DNA of 64,000 nt from Geminocystis sp. NIES-3708. Its GTDB lineage: Bacteria; Cyanobacteriota; Cyanobacteriia; Cyanobacteriales; Cyanobacteriaceae. The translations under genes and the position numbers were made by a program. Below, piece by piece: positions 41,632-49,645 of this stretch. The notes below the pieces were generated by a model. That model was not told where the DNA came from. It worked only from the letters and a program-made list of their open reading frames with translations, and ran no database searches. The stretch is taken from the NCBI RefSeq assembly GCF_001548095.1, contig NZ_AP014815.1, positions 2,727,656 to 2,791,655 of the forward strand, given 5' to 3'. Positions within the stretch are counted from its first letter, which is position 1; every line of letters begins with the position of its first letter.

Positions 41632-42504
41632 TTAAAGGTATTTTTGCAATAATAACGATATTTTGTGTTTAGTTTCTGTTGGTGCTGTATCTAAGGGAGT
41701 TAAAATAGCGGTTTTTAAGGCTGAGTGTGCATCACTAATAAATGGATTTTTATTAATTAATTTTACCGTTTCTCTGATTACTTTTTGAGCATTAATACCA
41801 TTTTGATGTAAATTCTGAATGACGGTTTCAACGGTAACATGATCATGTTCTGGATTCCAACAATCATAATCTGTAACTAAAGCTAGGGTAGCGTAAGCTA
41901 TTTCTGCTTCTCTTGCCAATTTGGCTTCCGTTAAGTTTGTCATGCCAATGATACTTGCACCCCAACTACGATATAAATTTGATTCGGCTATAGTAGAAAA
42001 TGCTGGACCTTCCATACATACATAAGTACCACCATGATGTAAGTCAATATCAGGAAAATCTAAATTTCTCACGGCTTGGGCGATGGTATCAGCTAGTTTG
42101 TTACACACAGGATGTCCAAACCCTATATGTGCCACAATACCTTCACCGAAAAAAGTTGATTCACGATTTTTTGTACGATCAATAAATTGATCAGGTATAA
42201 CTAAATCTAGAGGTCTAATATGTTGTTGTAGTGAACCAACTGCAGAGGCTGAGATAATATAGTCAACTCCTAACTGTTTCAATCCATAAATATTAGCTTT
42301 AAAAGGTAATTCTGTTGGTAGGAAGTGATGATTTTTGCCATGACGAGCAAGAAAAACAACTTTTGCATTGTCTAATGTTCCAATGATAAAATTATCAGAA
42401 GGTTTACCAAAGGGAGTATCTAGAGAAATTTCTTCAACATCTTGTAAGGCTTCCATTTTATATAATCCGCTACCACCAATAATACCAATTTTTGTTAATG
42501 TCAT
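41632..42504 (-). CDS. mtnP: S-methyl-5-thioadenosine phosphorylase
   Basis: It cleaves methylthioadenosine with phosphate to adenine and methylthioribose-1-phosphate for methionine salvage. The 290 residues begin [13 protein letters not shown]. They contain the phosphate-site region [22 protein letters not shown], the substrate-site segment [15 protein letters not shown] and [19 protein letters not shown], all typical of MtnP rather than purine nucleoside phosphorylase. The length is normal. Starts at ATG 42504. Confidence 0.95.
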
Positions 42505-42630
42505 TTCCTTGTTTTTACTATAAAAATACCATTAATAATTTTAACCCAAAGTAACATATGTTTGTGATTAATATTCTAATTATCATATCACTTTATAAAA
42601 AATAAAGCGGTAACGTTTAATGTTTATAAA

Positions 42631-43881
42631 TTAATTATTAATAGGAATAAATAAACTGAATTGTGTTCCTTTTTCCTGTTGATATTTTGTCCAATAATAA
42701 GGACTAATTAAACTAATTTTTACACCTATTTTATCACATAATTCTTTAACAATTGTTAAACCTAAACCAGTTCCATCAATTGCACTTTTATCTTGAGTAC
42801 CTCGATAATGTCTTTCAAAAATGTGTAGTTGGTCTTCTTGATTAATGCCATAACCTGTATCGCTAATCTCAATAATTAATTCGGTTTTATTTTGCTTAAT
42901 TTCTAATAAGACTTTGCCATTATTAGGAGTATATTTGACTGCATTTTCTAATAGATTATAAAGAATTTCTGTTAACGCTTTTTTATTACTATTTACTAAT
43001 AATAAAGAATTGTTAATTTTAGTTAACAATTGAATATTTTTTTCTTCACTAATGGCTTTAATTGTTAAAATCAAGGGCTCAATAATTTCTTGAATATTAA
43101 ATTTTTCTAATAACTCAATCTTTTCTGTTAAGAAAAAGCTGGTAGATCCTATGGAATTTAATGGTAAAATTTTATTATTATTTAATCCTTCCCATTGTTC
43201 ATTAAAATCAGCAATTAAGTCTTTCATTCGATCACTTTCTCTGATAATATTTTCTGAAACTTGATAATTAGATTCATGAGGCAATAGACGTTTTAACAAT
43301 AATTTAGCGAAAGTACGAATAGCCGTGAGGGGATTACGTAGTTGATGTAAAAAGTCGTCAATATGATTATTTTCTAATATCCTTAATTTTTCTAATTGAG
43401 TTAGTTTTAATTCTGTTAATTGCTGTTTTTGTTCGATAATACGAGCTAAAGTTATAGTTTTAACAATTTCTTTTATTTGTATAATTTCATTTTGTCGCCA
43501 AGGTAAACTTTTTCTAGTGGTAGTTAATAAACCTAAAACTAAATCTTGATAAATTAAGGGCAAAATTAACTGATAAGGAGAGTCAGAATTTGAGGTATTA
43601 CTGATTATTTTTTCAGATACAAAACAATCATTAATAACCTCATTAAAAGTTTCTTTTACGGATTTTGAAGGTAAAAAAGATAAAGTGTTCAATTGAGAAG
43701 AAACAGTGGCAGAATTTGGATAAACTAAAATAGGAATTAATTTAGGTGTCTGACTATTATTTGGTGTTGTCAAATAAATAATACTTTCTTGCACTAAAAA
43801 ATTCTGTAATAGTAGCCTTAATTGTGATTCACATAGATGAATAAATTCTTCACTTACTCTAACTTCTTCATATTCGGGCAT
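42631..43881 (-). CDS. Sensor histidine kinase with GAF-like N-terminus, next to kaiB3/kaiA3
   Basis: 416 residues. The first about 150 residues look like a GAF-type sensory domain (PYQLILPLIYQDLVLGLLTTTR). A helix follows, then a dimerisation domain with phospho-acceptor H179 in FLHQLRNPLTAIRTFAKLL. The ATPase domain has the N box in EILYNLLENAVKYT and glycine boxes DTGYGI and GTGLGLTIVKELC. No membrane segment, so it is cytoplasmic. It lies 124 bases downstream of kaiB on the same strand. A role in KaiA3/KaiB3 input or output is inferred from position only; true SasA has a KaiB-like N-terminus, which this lacks. Confidence 0.88.
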   Translation of the reverse strand: MPEYEEVRVSEEFIHLCESQLRLLLQNFLVQESIIYLTTPNNSQTPKLIPILVYPNSATVSSQLNTLSFLPSKSVKETFNEVINDCFVSEKIISNTSNSDSPYQLILPLIYQDLVLGLLTTTRKSLPWRQNEIIQIKEIVKTITLARIIEQKQQLTELKLTQLEKLRILENNHIDDFLHQLRNPLTAIRTFAKLLLKRLLPHESNYQVSENIIRESDRMKDLIADFNEQWEGLNNNKILPLNSIGSTSFFLTEKIELLEKFNIQEIIEPLILTIKAISEEKNIQLLTKINNSLLLVNSNKKALTEILYNLLENAVKYTPNNGKVLLEIKQNKTELIIEISDTGYGINQEDQLHIFERHYRGTQDKSAIDGTGLGLTIVKELCDKIGVKISLISPYYWTKYQQEKGTQFSLFIPINN

Positions 43882-44005
43882 AATCCATTAATTATATATA
43901 CAGTTTATTTTTGGTTTAGTTTTTATTAAAATAATTACAAATTTATTCGTTAAATATTAGTATTAAATATTTTTTATGCTTATTTTCCATGAGCTTTTTT
44001 TAGTA

Positions 44006-44287
44006 TTATTGATCTTTAGCAACCAAATCTAACCCATAAAGTACTTTTTCTCGATTAGATAAATCTCCAATAATTCTTTGTAATGGCGGTGGCAGTTGCT
44101 TAATTAAAGTCGGTGTTACTAAAATTTTCTCTATTTCCGCACGATGTGGTTCTTCTAATACATCAATAATTTCTACTTTGTACTGATTACTCAACTCTTC
44201 TTTACACAATCTTAACAGATTAGCGATCGCCCTTTGAGAATTAAGGGAATTACCAGTAATATATAATCGCAATAAATATTTACTCAT
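44006..44287 (-). CDS. kaiB3: KaiB clock protein, KaiB3 type
   Basis: 93 residues with the KaiB thioredoxin-like, fold-switching pattern: YLLRLYITGNSLNSQRAI, EIIDVLEEPHRAEIEKILVTPTLIKQLPPP, and RRIIGDLSN-like RIIGDLSNREKVLYGLDL. The acidic C-terminal tail of canonical KaiB (about 102 residues) is missing. The start lies 3 bases after the stop of the kaiA3-like gene. That order matches Synechocystis sll0485-sll0486 (KaiA3-KaiB3), hence the KaiB3 assignment. Its ATPase partner KaiC3 is not in the window. Confidence 0.88.
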   Translation of the reverse strand: MSKYLLRLYITGNSLNSQRAIANLLRLCKEELSNQYKVEIIDVLEEPHRAEIEKILVTPTLIKQLPPPLQRIIGDLSNREKVLYGLDLVAKDQ

Positions 44288-44290
44288 GAA

Positions 44291-45178
44291 TTAAATTTGA
44301 TCAGAATCAGAAGGAAAAAAGACATTAAGATTACTAATACCAATATAATATTTACGATAATAGGAAGTTAAATAACCCATTAACTCTAATAATCTTAACC
44401 GACCTTCATCAACATAGGCTTGAACTTTTGCTAAATTTGCGTTCTGACTTTTTATTTTAAGGGCTTTAGTATGAATATCTACTATATCTCTTGGACTAGC
44501 TTTAAAAAAACCTAATTTTGCGGCTAAAGAACGTAACTTTTCAGAAGTATCATGATTTACTTTAAAGGCTCTTTCTTCTAAGGCTAAATCTAATAATTCC
44601 CCATATCTAGTGGTTAAATCGGCAAAAACTTCAGGAATAGACTCTTTTAATGCTTCTGAAGCAAACATTCTAGCCGTGATGCTAGGTTGAATAGAATTAG
44701 CTAAATTTTCGAGACTCGTAAATTCTTTTTGTTGTTGTTGTCGTTGTTTTTGTTGGGAAAAGTTATAAATATACTGTTGTCTTTCAATAGCGATACGAAT
44801 AGCATAAATCAAAGAGTTGCTATCTAAATCTTTTTTCTGTAGATAACCATTTGCACCTAGTTGAAAAGCCCGAACGATAATAGTTTCATCCTGATAAGCT
44901 GTTTGTACAATGATAGGAATATCAGGAGCATTTTCTTTAATTTTTAATAGTGATTCAATACTTTTACTATCAGGTAATGTTAAATCAAGTAAAATAACAT
45001 CAAAATCTTTTTCCGTAAGTATATTTAAGGCTTCAGTTAAGTTTGTTACTAAAGACAAATCAAAAGATAATCCCTCTGCTAAAACAGAATCATGAGAGTT
45101 AGACAGTAAATTTTGAATTAGTTGAGCATTAATAGCATCATCCTCTACTAATAAAATTTCATATACATAATTAGACAT
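44291..45178 (-). CDS. kaiA3: KaiA3: response-regulator / KaiA-like chimera
   Basis: 295 residues. Residues 1-130 are a response-regulator receiver: acidic pocket E12-D13-D14, phospho-acceptor D65 in VILLDLTLPD, and the conserved lysine in GYLQKKDL. A Gln-rich linker (about 142-152) leads to a helical C-terminal domain (about 160-285). Its pattern FADLTTRYGELLDLAL ... SPRDIVDIHTKALK ... LRLLELMGYLTSYYRKYYIG parallels the KaiA C-terminal four-helix domain that stimulates KaiC. This chimera matches KaiA3 (Sll0485) described recently in Synechocystis. Starts at ATG 45178; kaiB3 follows after 3 bases. Confidence 0.82.
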   Translation of the reverse strand: MSNYVYEILLVEDDAINAQLIQNLLSNSHDSVLAEGLSFDLSLVTNLTEALNILTEKDFDVILLDLTLPDSKSIESLLKIKENAPDIPIIVQTAYQDETIIVRAFQLGANGYLQKKDLDSNSLIYAIRIAIERQQYIYNFSQQKQRQQQQKEFTSLENLANSIQPSITARMFASEALKESIPEVFADLTTRYGELLDLALEERAFKVNHDTSEKLRSLAAKLGFFKASPRDIVDIHTKALKIKSQNANLAKVQAYVDEGRLRLLELMGYLTSYYRKYYIGISNLNVFFPSDSDQI

Positions 45179-45307
45179 ATTTTAGAGGGGAGCAAAATTT
45201 TATCAACGGATAAAGAGTTAGTAATTTTATAGTACCAATCTTCCTAGCTTTTCGCTAGTTTGCCCCTATTCTCTTGATAACCTGAATTATTTATTAATTA
45301 TTAATTG

Positions 45308-46327
45308 TTATGCGGCGACAGAAGCATTATTAAAACTCTTAACACGACTAGGTTTTACATATACGGTTTGATTATGACGTAAACCTAATTTATCGAATTT
45401 TTCCCGATTCAAATGGGCAGTAATTTCCCAATTATCAGCAATAACTAATTCCGCCTGAATTTCCCATCCTAAATGAATAATACGTTTAACGATCGCTTTA
45501 CTACTGATACCATCATCTTCTAATAATATATCTAATTCGTGAGGTCTGATAAATATATCATCTCCTAAATTATCAAGGACATTTTCACCAAATAAAGGAG
45601 CATGACGAGGCAAGATATTTACTTCGCCAATGAATTGCATCACAAAAGATGACGCAGGATTATCATAAATTTCAGCAGGTGAGCCAATTTGCTCAATTCT
45701 TCCCTTATTCATAACGACAATTTCATCAGCTACTTCCATCGCTTCTTCTTGATCATGGGTGACAAACACGCTGGTAATATGCACTTCATCATGCAATCTT
45801 CTTAGCCATGCTCTCAACTCTTTGCGTACTTTAGCATCTAAAGCTCCAAAAGGTTCATCTAAAAGTAGTACTTGAGGTTGTACAGCTAAGGCACGAGCTA
45901 AGGCTACCCGTTGTCTTTGTCCTCCTGATAACTGACTAGGATAGCGATCGCCTAAACCCTCTAACTGTATTAAACTCAGTAATTCAGAAACTTTTTCTTT
46001 TACCTGTGCTTCAGGTGCTTTACGAATGCGTAAGCCAAAAGCAATATTTTCACGAATAGTTAAATGTTTAAATAAAGCATAATGTTGAAAAACAAAACCA
46101 ATATTTCGCTTACGAATATCAACACCTGTGGTATCTTTTCCGTTGATAATAATTTGACCAACATCGGGATTTTCTAACCCAGATATTGTGCGTAAAAGGG
46201 TTGATTTTCCTGAACCAGAAGGACCCAATAAAGCTACTAAGGTATTAGCTTTTACTTCTAAATTAATATTATCTAAGGCTAAAAAACTACCAAAATTTTT
46301 AGAAACATTATTAACAAGAATACTCAT
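45308..46327 (-). CDS. cysA: Sulfate/thiosulfate ABC transporter ATPase CysA
   Basis: 339 residues. Walker A reads GPSGSGKST, the signature [16 protein letters not shown], Walker [13 protein letters not shown], and the switch histidine is in [15 protein letters not shown]. The C-terminal TOBE-like region starts near 235 ([14 protein letters not shown]). It is the last gene of the sulfate operon, 143 bases after cysW. Starts at ATG 46327. It energises sulfate uptake at the inner membrane. Confidence 0.96.
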
Positions 46328-46470
46328 TTTTTTCTCCTATATTTATATACGAACATAACAATTAAAACGAGGCAAAATATATTGCATAATTTAGAATTTA
46401 TAAAAATTATTACAATTCCATTGTCTATTACTTACTCTTACATCTAAAGGTTAGATGGGTTTGAGTTTAG

Positions 46471-47283
46471 TTAAGTGTCAACAATTTTGGTTTTTCTTTC
46501 TAAAATTTCCTTGAAAATCAAGGTTAATGCCGCTAACAAACCCAAAACTACCGCCGCACTAAAAGCAGCTTCTGTTTGATAATTTTTATAGGCTAATTCT
46601 ACAAAAATAGGTAAAGTGGCAGTTTGTCCGATAATACTACCAGAAACCACTGCAACTGCTCCAAATTCACCCATAGCACGAGCATTTGTCAGTAAAACCC
46701 CATACATTAAACCCCAACGAATACTCGGTAAGGTAACACGCCAAAAGATTTGCCAATCTGTCGCACCTAGAGTTTGAGCTGCCTGTTCTTGTTCTGTACC
46801 AATTTCTTCTAAGACAGGTATTACTTCCCTCGCTACAAAAGGAAAAGTAACAAAAATTGTCGCTAAAATCATACCGGGTAATGCAAAAATAATTTTTACA
46901 TTCCAAGTTTCTAATAAAGGACCAAACCAACCATTACGCCCATATAATAAAACAATCATCAAACCCGCTACGACAGGAGAAATCGAGAAAGGTAAGTCAA
47001 TAAGACTCATTAAAAATGTTTTACCTTTAAATTCATTTCTAGCGATTACCCAAGCGGCACATAGTCCAAAAACAGTGTTAAGAGGTACACTAACTAAAGC
47101 AATAATTAAAGTAAGTTTGACGGCTTCCACAAATTCCCGTTGCTGTAAAGCCTCAACGAAGGGTTGAAACCCCTTATGAAAAGCCTCAAAAAATACTGAT
47201 ATTGCCGGAATAAGGAGAATTAAGGCTAAATATATTAAAGATATAATAATTAGCCCCATTTCTACAGGTTTAATCTTTTGCAT
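46471..47283 (-). CDS. cysW: Sulfate ABC transporter permease CysW
   Basis: 270 residues with six membrane helices. The ABC-permease EAA loop reads EQEQAAQTLGATDWQIFWRVTLPSI, and ARAMGEFGAVAVVSG is typical of CysW. The start at ATG 47283 overlaps the cysT stop by 14 bases, implying translational coupling. It forms the membrane channel with CysT. The operon order sbpA-NIL protein-cysT-cysW-cysA supports the name. Confidence 0.95.
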   Translation of the reverse strand: MQKIKPVEMGLIIISLIYLALILLIPAISVFFEAFHKGFQPFVEALQQREFVEAVKLTLIIALVSVPLNTVFGLCAAWVIARNEFKGKTFLMSLIDLPFSISPVVAGLMIVLLYGRNGWFGPLLETWNVKIIFALPGMILATIFVTFPFVAREVIPVLEEIGTEQEQAAQTLGATDWQIFWRVTLPSIRWGLMYGVLLTNARAMGEFGAVAVVSGSIIGQTATLPIFVELAYKNYQTEAAFSAAVVLGLLAALTLIFKEILERKTKIVDT

Positions 47284-48136
47284 AACGACGACCCCATTGT
47301 TGTAAGAAGTTGATTACGAATAAGAGAATTAAAGATATTAAAAGTAATACCGCACCAATAACCGTCGCCCCTACATAGTCATATTCTTCTAAACGTTGAA
47401 AAACTAATACGGGAGCAATTAAATCTTGAAAAGGTATATTAGATGCAATTACTACAATTGAGCCATATTCACCCACTGCCCTAGAAAAACCTAAAGCAAC
47501 ACCTGTTAGAATAGGTGGTATTAATGGGGGAAAAATAACTAAGCGAAAAGTCTGCCAATCCGTTGCACCTAAAGCCCAAGCGGCTTCTTCTATTTCCTGT
47601 TCTAGCTCTTGTAACACTGGTTGTAATGTTCTTACGATAAAGGGTAAAGAAATAAATAACATTGCCACAAATACCCCTAATTGAGAAAAGGCGATTTTAA
47701 TGCCAAAAGGTGTAAAAAATCTACCAATCCAACCACTAGGGCTGTAAACCGTTGCTAACACTAAACCTGCTACGGCGGTAGGCAACGCAAAAGGTACATC
47801 TATAATTGCGTCAAATATTTTTCTACCCGGAAATTCATAACGCACTAAAACCCATGCTAGTAAAGTTCCCATTACGCCGTTAATTGCCCCTGCGGCAAGA
47901 GCAGTAATGAAGGTAACTTGATAAGCCGAAATAGCAACGTCTGAGGTAGCAACTTCCCAAAATTTCCCGAATCCTAAAGTGGAAGATTTGAGAATTAATG
48001 CTGTCATCGGAATTAACAAAATAATAGTTAAATAGCCGATAGTAACAAACCAAGGAATTGATATATTTGAGAAAAAATTAGCGACTATTTCTCGTTTTTT
48101 TATTATGGGAGGAAAATCATCAAGGGAAGCAACCAT
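47270..48136 (-). CDS. cysT: Sulfate ABC transporter permease CysT
   Basis: 288 residues with six membrane helices. The EAA loop reads ELEQEIEEAAWALGATDWQTF, and LGFSRAVGEYGSIVVIASN and PFALPTAVAGLVLA are typical of CysT/CysU. The first about 28 residues are a cytoplasmic polar segment. Starts at ATG 48136, 50 bases after the NIL-domain gene. The stop overlaps cysW. Confidence 0.95.
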   Translation of the reverse strand: MVASLDDFPPIIKKREIVANFFSNISIPWFVTIGYLTIILLIPMTALILKSSTLGFGKFWEVATSDVAISAYQVTFITALAAGAINGVMGTLLAWVLVRYEFPGRKIFDAIIDVPFALPTAVAGLVLATVYSPSGWIGRFFTPFGIKIAFSQLGVFVAMLFISLPFIVRTLQPVLQELEQEIEEAAWALGATDWQTFRLVIFPPLIPPILTGVALGFSRAVGEYGSIVVIASNIPFQDLIAPVLVFQRLEEYDYVGATVIGAVLLLISLILLFVINFLQQWGRRYAKD

Positions 48137-48186
48137 TTTTTTAAATTATGTTTAATTAATAGTGTGTACATAAAAAAATTAAGGAT

Positions 48187-48489
48187 TTAATCTTCTAATA
48201 ACCATCCTTCAAAATTCCAATCTTTTGTGAAGGCTTGATCTTCTTTACTGTGATTCCAAATTTCTATATTAGAATCAGCTAAGTATTTTAAACCATCACT
48301 TATGGCTTCTTTTGTTCCTTTTAATAAAAGGTTAAACCACCCGTCACCACCAGCAGATTCCCCTAAAAGAGCGGAAGTAATATTAACTTCTAAATTATAA
48401 TCAGATGCTAACCTAAAAATGATAGGTTGCTGATGATATTCAGGGGGAATTCGTAAAGATATTTTCAGAGATTTTAGTTTATCATTCAT
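48187..48489 (-). CDS. Small NIL-domain protein in the sulfate operon
   Basis: 100 residues starting LKSLKISLRIPPEYHQQPIIF, then LASDYNLEVNITSALLGESAGGDGWFNLLLKG, the beta-alpha-beta pattern of the NIL domain (found at the end of methionine transporter ATPases, where it binds the amino acid). The tail is acidic and Trp-rich. A gene of this kind sits between sbpA and cysT in Synechocystis too (ssr2439, from memory). It may sense a sulfur amino acid and gate the transporter; that is inference. Starts at ATG 48489. Confidence 0.85.
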   Translation of the reverse strand: MNDKLKSLKISLRIPPEYHQQPIIFRLASDYNLEVNITSALLGESAGGDGWFNLLLKGTKEAISDGLKYLADSNIEIWNHSKEDQAFTKDWNFEGWLLED

Positions 48490-48580
48490 CTTTTTATCTG
48501 AGTTGATTGAGAATGTTAATATTGAGAGTCGATAGGTTAAGAATCTAATATTTAAATGAACAGTAATTGTTAATTATTAA

Positions 48581-49645
48581 TTACTTTTTGAGATTGGCAA
48601 AAATTTGGTCAAAAATAGTACCATCATCAAAGAAATCTTTTTGAACTTGATCCCAACCACCAAAAGCTTCTACGGTGAATAAGTTATCAACTTTAGGAAA
48701 CTGATCTTTGAATTCTTCAAATATAGCTTCATCCACAGGACGAAAACCTACTTCAGCAAAAGCTTTTTGAGCTTCAGGTGTAAATAAAAATTGTACAAAG
48801 GCTTCAGCTACTTCCCTTGTACCTCGTTTGTCAACATACTTGTCAACTACGGCGATCGGTCCATCGATAGATATATTTTTATCGGTAGGTATAATATAGG
48901 GTTGATTTTCTCCTTTCAATTTAGCTAATAAAATTTCATTTTCATAGTTCATCAAAATGTCTCCTTGTCCTTGTTTATAAAAAACGTCTGTAGCTTCTCT
49001 TGCATCTTTTGGCAATACGGGAACATTTTTATAGACATTGGTAACAAAATCTTGAGCTTCTTGAGCATTACCACCACCTTGAGTAATTGCTCCCCATAAT
49101 ACTAAAAAGTTCCATCTTGCACCCCCTGAAGTTTTGGGATTAGCGGTAATTACTTTAATATCAGGATTTGCTAAATCTGCCCAAGTCTTTGCAGTTTTGC
49201 CTCCTTCTCTGCCCACTAAAGCCACTACGGAGCGAGTTACAATACCATTATTTGGTGCTTCTTTTTCCCATCCCGGTTCAATTAATCCTGCTTGTTGAAT
49301 TTTCAAAGTATCTGCTGATAAAGCTAAACCCACAACATCGGCTTCTAATCCATCAATAACTGCTCTCGTTTGTGAGCCAGAACCACCATAACTTTGTTCA
49401 ACGATAACTTTTTGACCTGTTTTTTGTTCCCATTGTTCAGCAAATTTCGGGATGATTTTTTCGTAAGCACTTTGAGTTACAGCATAACTGACTAAGGTGA
49501 GTTTTACTTCCTGATTAGGGCTATTTTGATTACTGGTATTATTTTCTGTCTGATTTGTGTTGTTAGGATTAGAACAGGCGGCAACCACACCACTAATAGC
49601 TAAACCAATGATAAACCCGCTTATTAATCTTGTTTGCTTTTTCAT
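48581..49645 (-). CDS. sbpA: Sulfate-binding lipoprotein SbpA
   Basis: 354 residues. A lipoprotein signal peptide ends in VVAAC with C24 as lipid site, then an Asn/Gln/Thr-rich linker. The binding domain contains TLVSYAVTQSAYEKIIPKF, EQSYGGSGSQTRAVIDGL, NPKTSGGARWNFL and ADVVGLALSADT, the pattern of sulfate-binding proteins of the Sbp type. It delivers sulfate to CysT-CysW in the periplasm. It is the first gene of the operon, starting at ATG 49645. Its promoter must lie in the 90 bases between this start and the ndhM terminator. Confidence 0.96.
   Translation of the reverse strand: MKKQTRLISGFIIGLAISGVVAACSNPNNTNQTENNTSNQNSPNQEVKLTLVSYAVTQSAYEKIIPKFAEQWEQKTGQKVIVEQSYGGSGSQTRAVIDGLEADVVGLALSADTLKIQQAGLIEPGWEKEAPNNGIVTRSVVALVGREGGKTAKTWADLANPDIKVITANPKTSGGARWNFLVLWGAITQGGGNAQEAQDFVTNVYKNVPVLPKDAREATDVFYKQGQGDILMNYENEILLAKLKGENQPYIIPTDKNISIDGPIAVVDKYVDKRGTREVAEAFVQFLFTPEAQKAFAEVGFRPVDEAIFEEFKDQFPKVDNLFTVEAFGGWDQVQKDFFDDGTIFDQIFANLKK

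Follow-up and report, generated by a model that had tools for sequence, protein, structure and literature searches.

A kaiA3-kaiB3 gene pair adjoins the gene for the redox-sensing kinase Hik2 in one cyanobacterial genus

In Synechocystis sp. PCC 6803, a second clock is built on KaiA3 (sll0485), a chimeric protein encoded directly upstream of kaiB3, with kaiC3 located elsewhere in the genome (PMC11372060; papers are cited here for individual passages of their text). The same paper states that KaiA3 still lacks an identified cognate kinase, and a 2026 review still describes the KaiA3 signal as unidentified (PMC13421787). Hik2 is the cyanobacterial form of Chloroplast Sensor Kinase (CSK) and has been described in all cyanobacteria (PMC4751278, PMC5904244). 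This kinase carries a redox-active [3Fe-4S] cluster (PMC6949291) and transfers phosphate to Rre1 and RppA (PMC4751278); it reportedly seems to be essential. Here, we examine a stretch of 64,000 nucleotides from Geminocystis sp. NIES-3708 (the window; NZ_AP014815.1, positions 2,727,656 to 2,791,655), in which the genes of these two systems are neighbors. The window almost certainly contains kaiA3 and kaiB3 of a KaiA3-KaiB3-KaiC3 clock followed by the genome's Hik2/CSK orthologue; the trio is retained in this genus despite changing surroundings.

The genes kaiA3, kaiB3 and a 416-residue histidine kinase gene are consecutive on the minus strand and separated by gaps of 3 and 124 bases in the list of open reading frames (ORFs), which is where a sequence-only reading of the window had placed them. 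The features, in window coordinates, are:

44291..45178, minus strand: kaiA3, 295 amino acids (aa), a receiver domain fused to a KaiA-like C-terminal domain
44801..45157, minus strand: receiver domain of KaiA3, residues 8-126 (Pfam Response_reg, 2e-19)
44984..44986, minus strand: codon for Asp65, the presumed phosphoacceptor of KaiA3, placed by alignments (D65 numbering as in PMC11372060)
44333..44650, minus strand: KaiA-like helical C-terminal domain of KaiA3, residues ~177-282 (Pfam KaiA at 0.042, below the cut-off; helices of the structure model; PDB profile matches at E 0.22-0.43)
44006..44287, minus strand: kaiB3, 93 aa (Pfam KaiB, 6.2e-29; PDB KaiB chains down to 4.8e-27)
43882..44005, no strand: kaiB3-hik2 intergenic stretch, 124 bases, free of terminator-like sites
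42631..43881, minus strand: hik2, 416 aa, predicted Hik2/CSK orthologue
43831..43833, minus strand: codon for Cys17, counterpart of the iron-sulfur ligand Cys19 of Hik2 (PMC6949291)
43345..43347, minus strand: codon for His179, counterpart by alignment of the phosphorylated His185 of Hik2 (PMC4751278)
42640..42984, minus strand: HATPase_c domain of the window kinase, residues 300-414 (Pfam, 1.6e-23)

The kaiA3-kaiB3 label proposed by the sequence-only reading agrees with several lines of evidence. The kaiA3 orthologues align at 46-85% identity, and full-length orthology to known KaiA3 supports a KaiA-like C-terminal domain. The C-terminal half of the window protein itself has no Pfam match above the cut-off, but KaiA is the most frequent Pfam family in this region, found in 14 of 22 KaiA3 members with a best E value of 0.00086. 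RsbU_N is second (10 of the 22), in keeping with a published structural comparison to RsbU (PMC11372060). A PDB profile search with the C-terminal half gave four matches, three of which are KaiA chains, at E 0.22-0.43. The structure model of KaiA3 consists of a receiver, one long helix and a C-terminal part that is also helical (mean predicted local distance difference test score [pLDDT], 83.2; predicted template modeling score, 0.50). The best 50 of 1758 Foldseek matches to this model were mainly receiver-containing structures and are therefore uninformative about the C-terminal domain. Together, these results suggest that the domain is KaiA-like, as had been proposed, though weakly so by sequence.

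In all 36 named KaiA3 loci, KaiA3 is followed by KaiB3. One more fetched locus (L124) was left out of the KaiA3 counts because its match covered the receiver part only; it also gave nothing in the KaiB3 scan. KaiA3 matches were present in 8 of 15 family genomes. A sample of 388 genomes from the order gave matches in 65, which is close to the frequency of 16.5% in the 2024 paper (PMC11372060). The window genome has five places with a KaiB domain: one next to a KaiC, that of the trio, two together next to another KaiC, and one within a 392-aa ORF. In a KaiC tree (27 proteins, 13 genomes), one clade (support 99/96) holds a single member from each kaiA3-bearing genome (10/10) and none from the three that lack kaiA3 (G003, G005 and G006, of which G005 is only 67% complete). 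Thus, a genome in this set has either both kaiA3 and a KaiC3-clade member (10 genomes) or neither (three genomes). The KaiC3-clade gene of the window genome is found at C1:3684055, approximately 0.9 Mb from the trio (C1:2770289-2772833) and outside the cluster, whereas in G018 it adjoins kaiA3B3. The window system therefore resembles that of PCC 6803 in its chimeric KaiA3, in the position of kaiA3 directly upstream of kaiB3 and in the separate location of kaiC3. It differs from the account in the text of PMC11372060, where kaiC3 is usually added to kaiA3B3 and the passages cited name no kinase partner, in that kaiB3 is followed by hik2.

To judge from its sequence, the window kinase is an orthologue of Hik2. 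It contains HisKA (Pfam, 2.9e-11) in addition to HATPase_c, and one clear best match to it was found in each of 20 genomes, its own included (the match in G017 consists of two pieces of one ORF). Moreover, each of the 15 family genomes has exactly one match at E ≤ 1e-60. The published residues of slr1147 are Cys19, Cys35 and Cys153 (PMC6949291) and His185, Gly359, Gly361, Gly386, Gly388 and Gly390 (PMC4751278). Two proteins from genus g12 (L155 and L157) have all of these residues exactly as published when counted from the peptide encoded by the cloning primer, and it is solely from this match that we call the genus Synechocystis-like. Other g12 proteins deviate: L156 follows the numbering up to His185 but carries an additional Cys at 350, beyond which its residues are offset by three; G019 has Cys19, Cys167 and a His at 199 and otherwise differs; and L158 has a Lys within the H-box motif. 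Of five DNA stretches derived from primers, the H-box stretch is present in L157 and the G1-box stretch in L156 and L157, and the other three are in none, so that none of these genomes has to be that of PCC 6803. When L155 was searched against the window genome, the window kinase was the top match at 1.5e-63, with the next at 1.4e-16, and the two proteins group at 100/98 in a 20-row tree of kinase cores that drew long-branch warnings on other rows. The window kinase shares the conserved Cys, His and ATP-box glycines of Hik2/CSK (slr1147; PMC4751278, PMC6949291, PMC5904244), and all 15 aligned orthologues have the Cys found at its position 17. A GAF-like N-terminus had also been proposed. The relatives support this, with Pfam GAF matches at E ≤ 0.1 in 14 of the 15 aligned orthologues (best, 7.3e-8), but the sole exception is the window protein itself. 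A structure model of Hik2, based on two sequences, was too poor to interpret (mean pLDDT, 34.5). An alternative assignment as a PnpS/PhoR-type kinase was rejected, the best NCBIfam match scoring 138 bits, far under the 400-bit cut-off.

The kinase had been distinguished from SasA at the outset, rightly so: Pfam finds no KaiB-like domain in it, and the 392-aa KaiB-domain ORF, which we take for SasA from its domain make-up, is located elsewhere in the genome (G000:C1:792745). SasA docks through its KaiB-like domain and CikA through a pseudoreceiver. Both docking modes are absent from Hik2, because it has no KaiB-like domain and its orthologues carry GAF instead of a pseudoreceiver. This argues against the possibility that KaiB3 or KaiC3 acts on Hik2 and that Hik2 and Rre1 carry the output of the second clock. 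Such a route would supply a missing output, since KaiB3-KaiC3 does not use the SasA-RpaA route (PMC11372060), but we consider it highly improbable.

The kaiA3-kaiB3-hik2 arrangement occurs in the window genome (G000) and in G001, G002 and G004, which are all four kaiA3-bearing genomes of genus g1. In a 19.9-kb comparison, the kaiB3/hik2 junction was kept in three of three kaiA3-bearing congeners, whereas the junction on the other side of hik2 was lost in four of four congeners and that on the other side of kaiA3 in both congeners in which it could be scored. Within the clustering used, no protein family is common to the immediate neighbors of the trio in the four genomes. Some further pairs were also kept, mostly among co-directional genes, for example those of the ABC transporter at 45308-49645. 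Where genes were not closely packed and co-directional, most of the junctions scored in G002 and G004 were broken. The fifth g1 genome, G003, has hik2 (75% identity; L040, G003:C54) but neither kaiA3 nor a KaiC3-clade member. Its kinase groups with those of G000 and G001 at 95/92 in the kinase-core tree, and the plainest account is therefore that G003 lost its clock genes; in this assembly of ~330 contigs and 99% completeness, the whole second clock has apparently gone. Thus, the linkage is real, kept and more than a chance arrangement, but it is local to one genus.

These data bear on the possibility that an ancestral rearrangement placed kaiA3B3 upstream of hik2 in this genus, and that the genes have simply not yet been separated and have no functional link. 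Inherited proximity of this kind would fit an arrangement that is restricted to one genus, the separation of kaiA3 and hik2 in the four other kaiA3-bearing genomes of the family and the presence of hik2 without kaiA3 in G003. It fits less well with immediate neighbors that differ in all four trio-bearing genomes, and with a kaiB3/hik2 junction that persists where most comparable junctions of G002 and G004 have been disrupted. We regard this explanation as unlikely.

The gaps between kaiB3 and hik2 measure 124, 121, 224 and 184 bases in G000, G001, G002 and G004, respectively. Two terminator-like sites were predicted in the region 42500-45400, within kaiA3 and kaiB3, and none in the kaiB3-hik2 gap; a promoter scan of the same region gave 15 sites compared to 18.3 in shuffled sequences. 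Read-through from kaiB3 into hik2 is plausible from sequence. Such read-through could also mean co-expression without phosphotransfer. In that case, hik2 would ride on the kaiA3B3 transcript, which would make the redox kinase and the Rre1 regulon dependent on time of day or match the amounts of the proteins, and Hik2 would signal only to Rre1 and RppA. The co-directional genes, the gap without a terminator-like site and the kept junction are all consistent with this explanation, as is the lack of a sequence sign of a new kinase-receiver pairing (see below). However, gaps of 121-224 bases exceed those inside kaiA3B3 and could hold a promoter, and we judge co-expression of this kind rather unlikely.

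Kinase genes also adjoin kaiA3 in another phylum. In the three Chloroflexota loci that were fetched (L116, L119 and L122), the kaiA3 ORF is preceded at 35, 21 and 3 bases, respectively, by the end of a co-directional kinase gene:

L116:8269-10709, Chloroflexota kinase-kaiA3 locus
L119:6174-8603, Chloroflexota kinase-kaiA3 locus
L122:7268-10462, Chloroflexota kinase-kaiA3 locus

These loci share with the window a kaiA3 gene next to a co-directional histidine kinase gene. They differ in that the kinase is upstream and has a REC-PAS-histidine kinase (two proteins) or GAF-histidine kinase (one protein) architecture that falls outside the Hik2 clade of the kinase-core tree. Because the kinase upstream of kaiA3 in Chloroflexota is a different one, kinase linkage arose more than once. 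The KaiA3-like ORF of L122 has a PAS domain between its receiver and KaiA-like parts.

We then considered the receiver residues in an alignment of 43 KaiA3 proteins. The full set of E12, D13, D65, T93 and K115 is present in all four trio-bearing genomes. Asp65 is found in 28 of the 43 proteins, including all seven that adjoin a kinase gene (four from g1 and three from Chloroflexota) and 21 of the 36 others. The exact set is present in 4/4 g1 proteins compared to 7/36 kinase-unlinked proteins; those of Chloroflexota deviate by Asn (two proteins) or Gln (one protein, with Gln also in place of the Lys). The 43 rows are related to one another, and the counts are given without a p-value. Receiver decay is widespread across KaiA3: Asp65 is missing from 15 of the 43 proteins and additional proteins, that of the Synechocystis-like G019 among them, have another residue in place of the conserved Lys. 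The Asp has been reported to be conserved except in Pleurocapsa and Microcystis (PMC11372060), and its loss is wider in the present alignment.

On the strength of the linkage, the intact receiver and the example of Chloroflexota, where kinase genes also adjoin kaiA3, Hik2 is the best kinase candidate in the genus. We tentatively propose, at somewhat less than even confidence, that the three genes form one expression unit and that Hik2 is an input kinase of the second clock. Canonical KaiA has been reported to bind quinones on its pseudoreceiver. In the proposed mechanism, the iron-sulfur cluster in its GAF domain would let Hik2 sense the plastoquinone pool, and Hik2 would autophosphorylate on His179. 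From there, the phosphate would pass both to Rre1 and to Asp65 of KaiA3, and phosphorylation would alter the stimulation of KaiC3 by the KaiA-like domain. The same signal would thus reach KaiA3 by phosphorylation instead. The fullest form of this model holds that Hik2/CSK is the cognate input kinase of KaiA3 and writes plastoquinone redox state onto Asp65 to reset the KaiC3 clock, that the genes form one unit in this genus, and that elsewhere the pairing is unlinked or has been lost along with decayed receiver residues. Taken as a whole, that model is doubtful. Co-expression without phosphotransfer and inherited proximity are both serious rivals to the input-kinase reading.

Several observations weigh against Hik2 as the input kinase. 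A match to the kinase was found in 61 of the 65 kaiA3-bearing genomes but adjoins kaiA3B3 in only four of these 61, all from g1, and Hik2 is present in seven of seven family genomes that lack kaiA3. The full receiver set is also carried by the unlinked family members G008 and G011, and is therefore not explained by linkage. The KaiA3 receiver is 26% identical to that of the presumed Rre1, chosen because its receiver contains the peptide that a published Rre1 primer encodes, and 23-30% identical to three other receivers of the genome. Inspection of the alignments revealed no change that marks the trio-bearing genomes in the dimerization helix of Hik2 or in helix 1 of KaiA3. There is no conserved element common to the four g1 kaiB3-hik2 gaps, and to judge from their lengths these gaps could contain a separate hik2 promoter. 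Finally, kaiB3 of G004 (L041:8425-8850) is broken by an insertion of ~120 bases that brings in stop codons, with the flanking kaiA3 and hik2 genes still open.

Both kaiA3 and the kinase gene are on one contig in 22 of the 61 genomes; 412-624 bases separate the two matches in the four g1 genomes (kaiB3 included), and the next nearest pair is 94 kb apart. In the other 39 genomes, the genes are on different contigs, whose ends could hide adjacency. Of the 33 named cyanobacterial KaiA3 loci, the kinase was found in one (L088), which is the contig of G001 and hence not independent. A hidden Markov model built from Hik2 orthologues, which may miss divergent kinases, found none at E ≤ 1e-4 in the other 32 loci, several of which end soon after kaiB3. 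The prediction of a kinase beside kaiB3 in relatives was thus borne out in three of them but is confined to a single genus. We discarded two broader ideas: a general kaiB3-kinase operon across the order, given adjacency in so few genomes, and recognition of KaiA3 by Hik2 as an Rre1-like receiver, given a sequence identity no higher than for other receivers.

The gene downstream of hik2, presumably encoding a methylthioadenosine phosphorylase-like protein (window 41632-43881 together with hik2), also follows hik2 in G005, G007 and G010, and this neighborhood is therefore probably older. The names mtnP and cysA for neighboring genes are likewise our assumptions. A further locus in the window genome (L125, G000:C1 near 1099326) contains an ORF for a DNA-binding protein of LuxR type; it lacks a receiver domain, and we take it to resemble PedR.

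The KaiA3 clock and Hik2 are each known, and the kaiA3B3-hik2 neighborhood was not encountered in the literature searched. The published targets of Hik2 are Rre1 and RppA, not KaiA3. We found no paper linking Hik2 with KaiA3, further listings having been judged by title and abstract; the one paper found with both names is PMC13421787, and the 12 of its 17 matching passages that were covered do not connect them. A search on KaiA3 and KaiB3 likewise found no hik2 neighborhood in text, the figures and supplements of PMC11372060 being outside its scope, and the genus name Geminocystis was not found among the papers listed by a search on kai genes. The maintained neighborhood with Hik2, a redox-sensing kinase shared with chloroplasts, names a concrete candidate for the cognate kinase of KaiA3 and makes this open question testable. 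Natural controls are available: one congener retains Hik2 but lacks kaiA3 and kaiC3, and there are relatives in which kaiA3 and hik2 are both present but unlinked.

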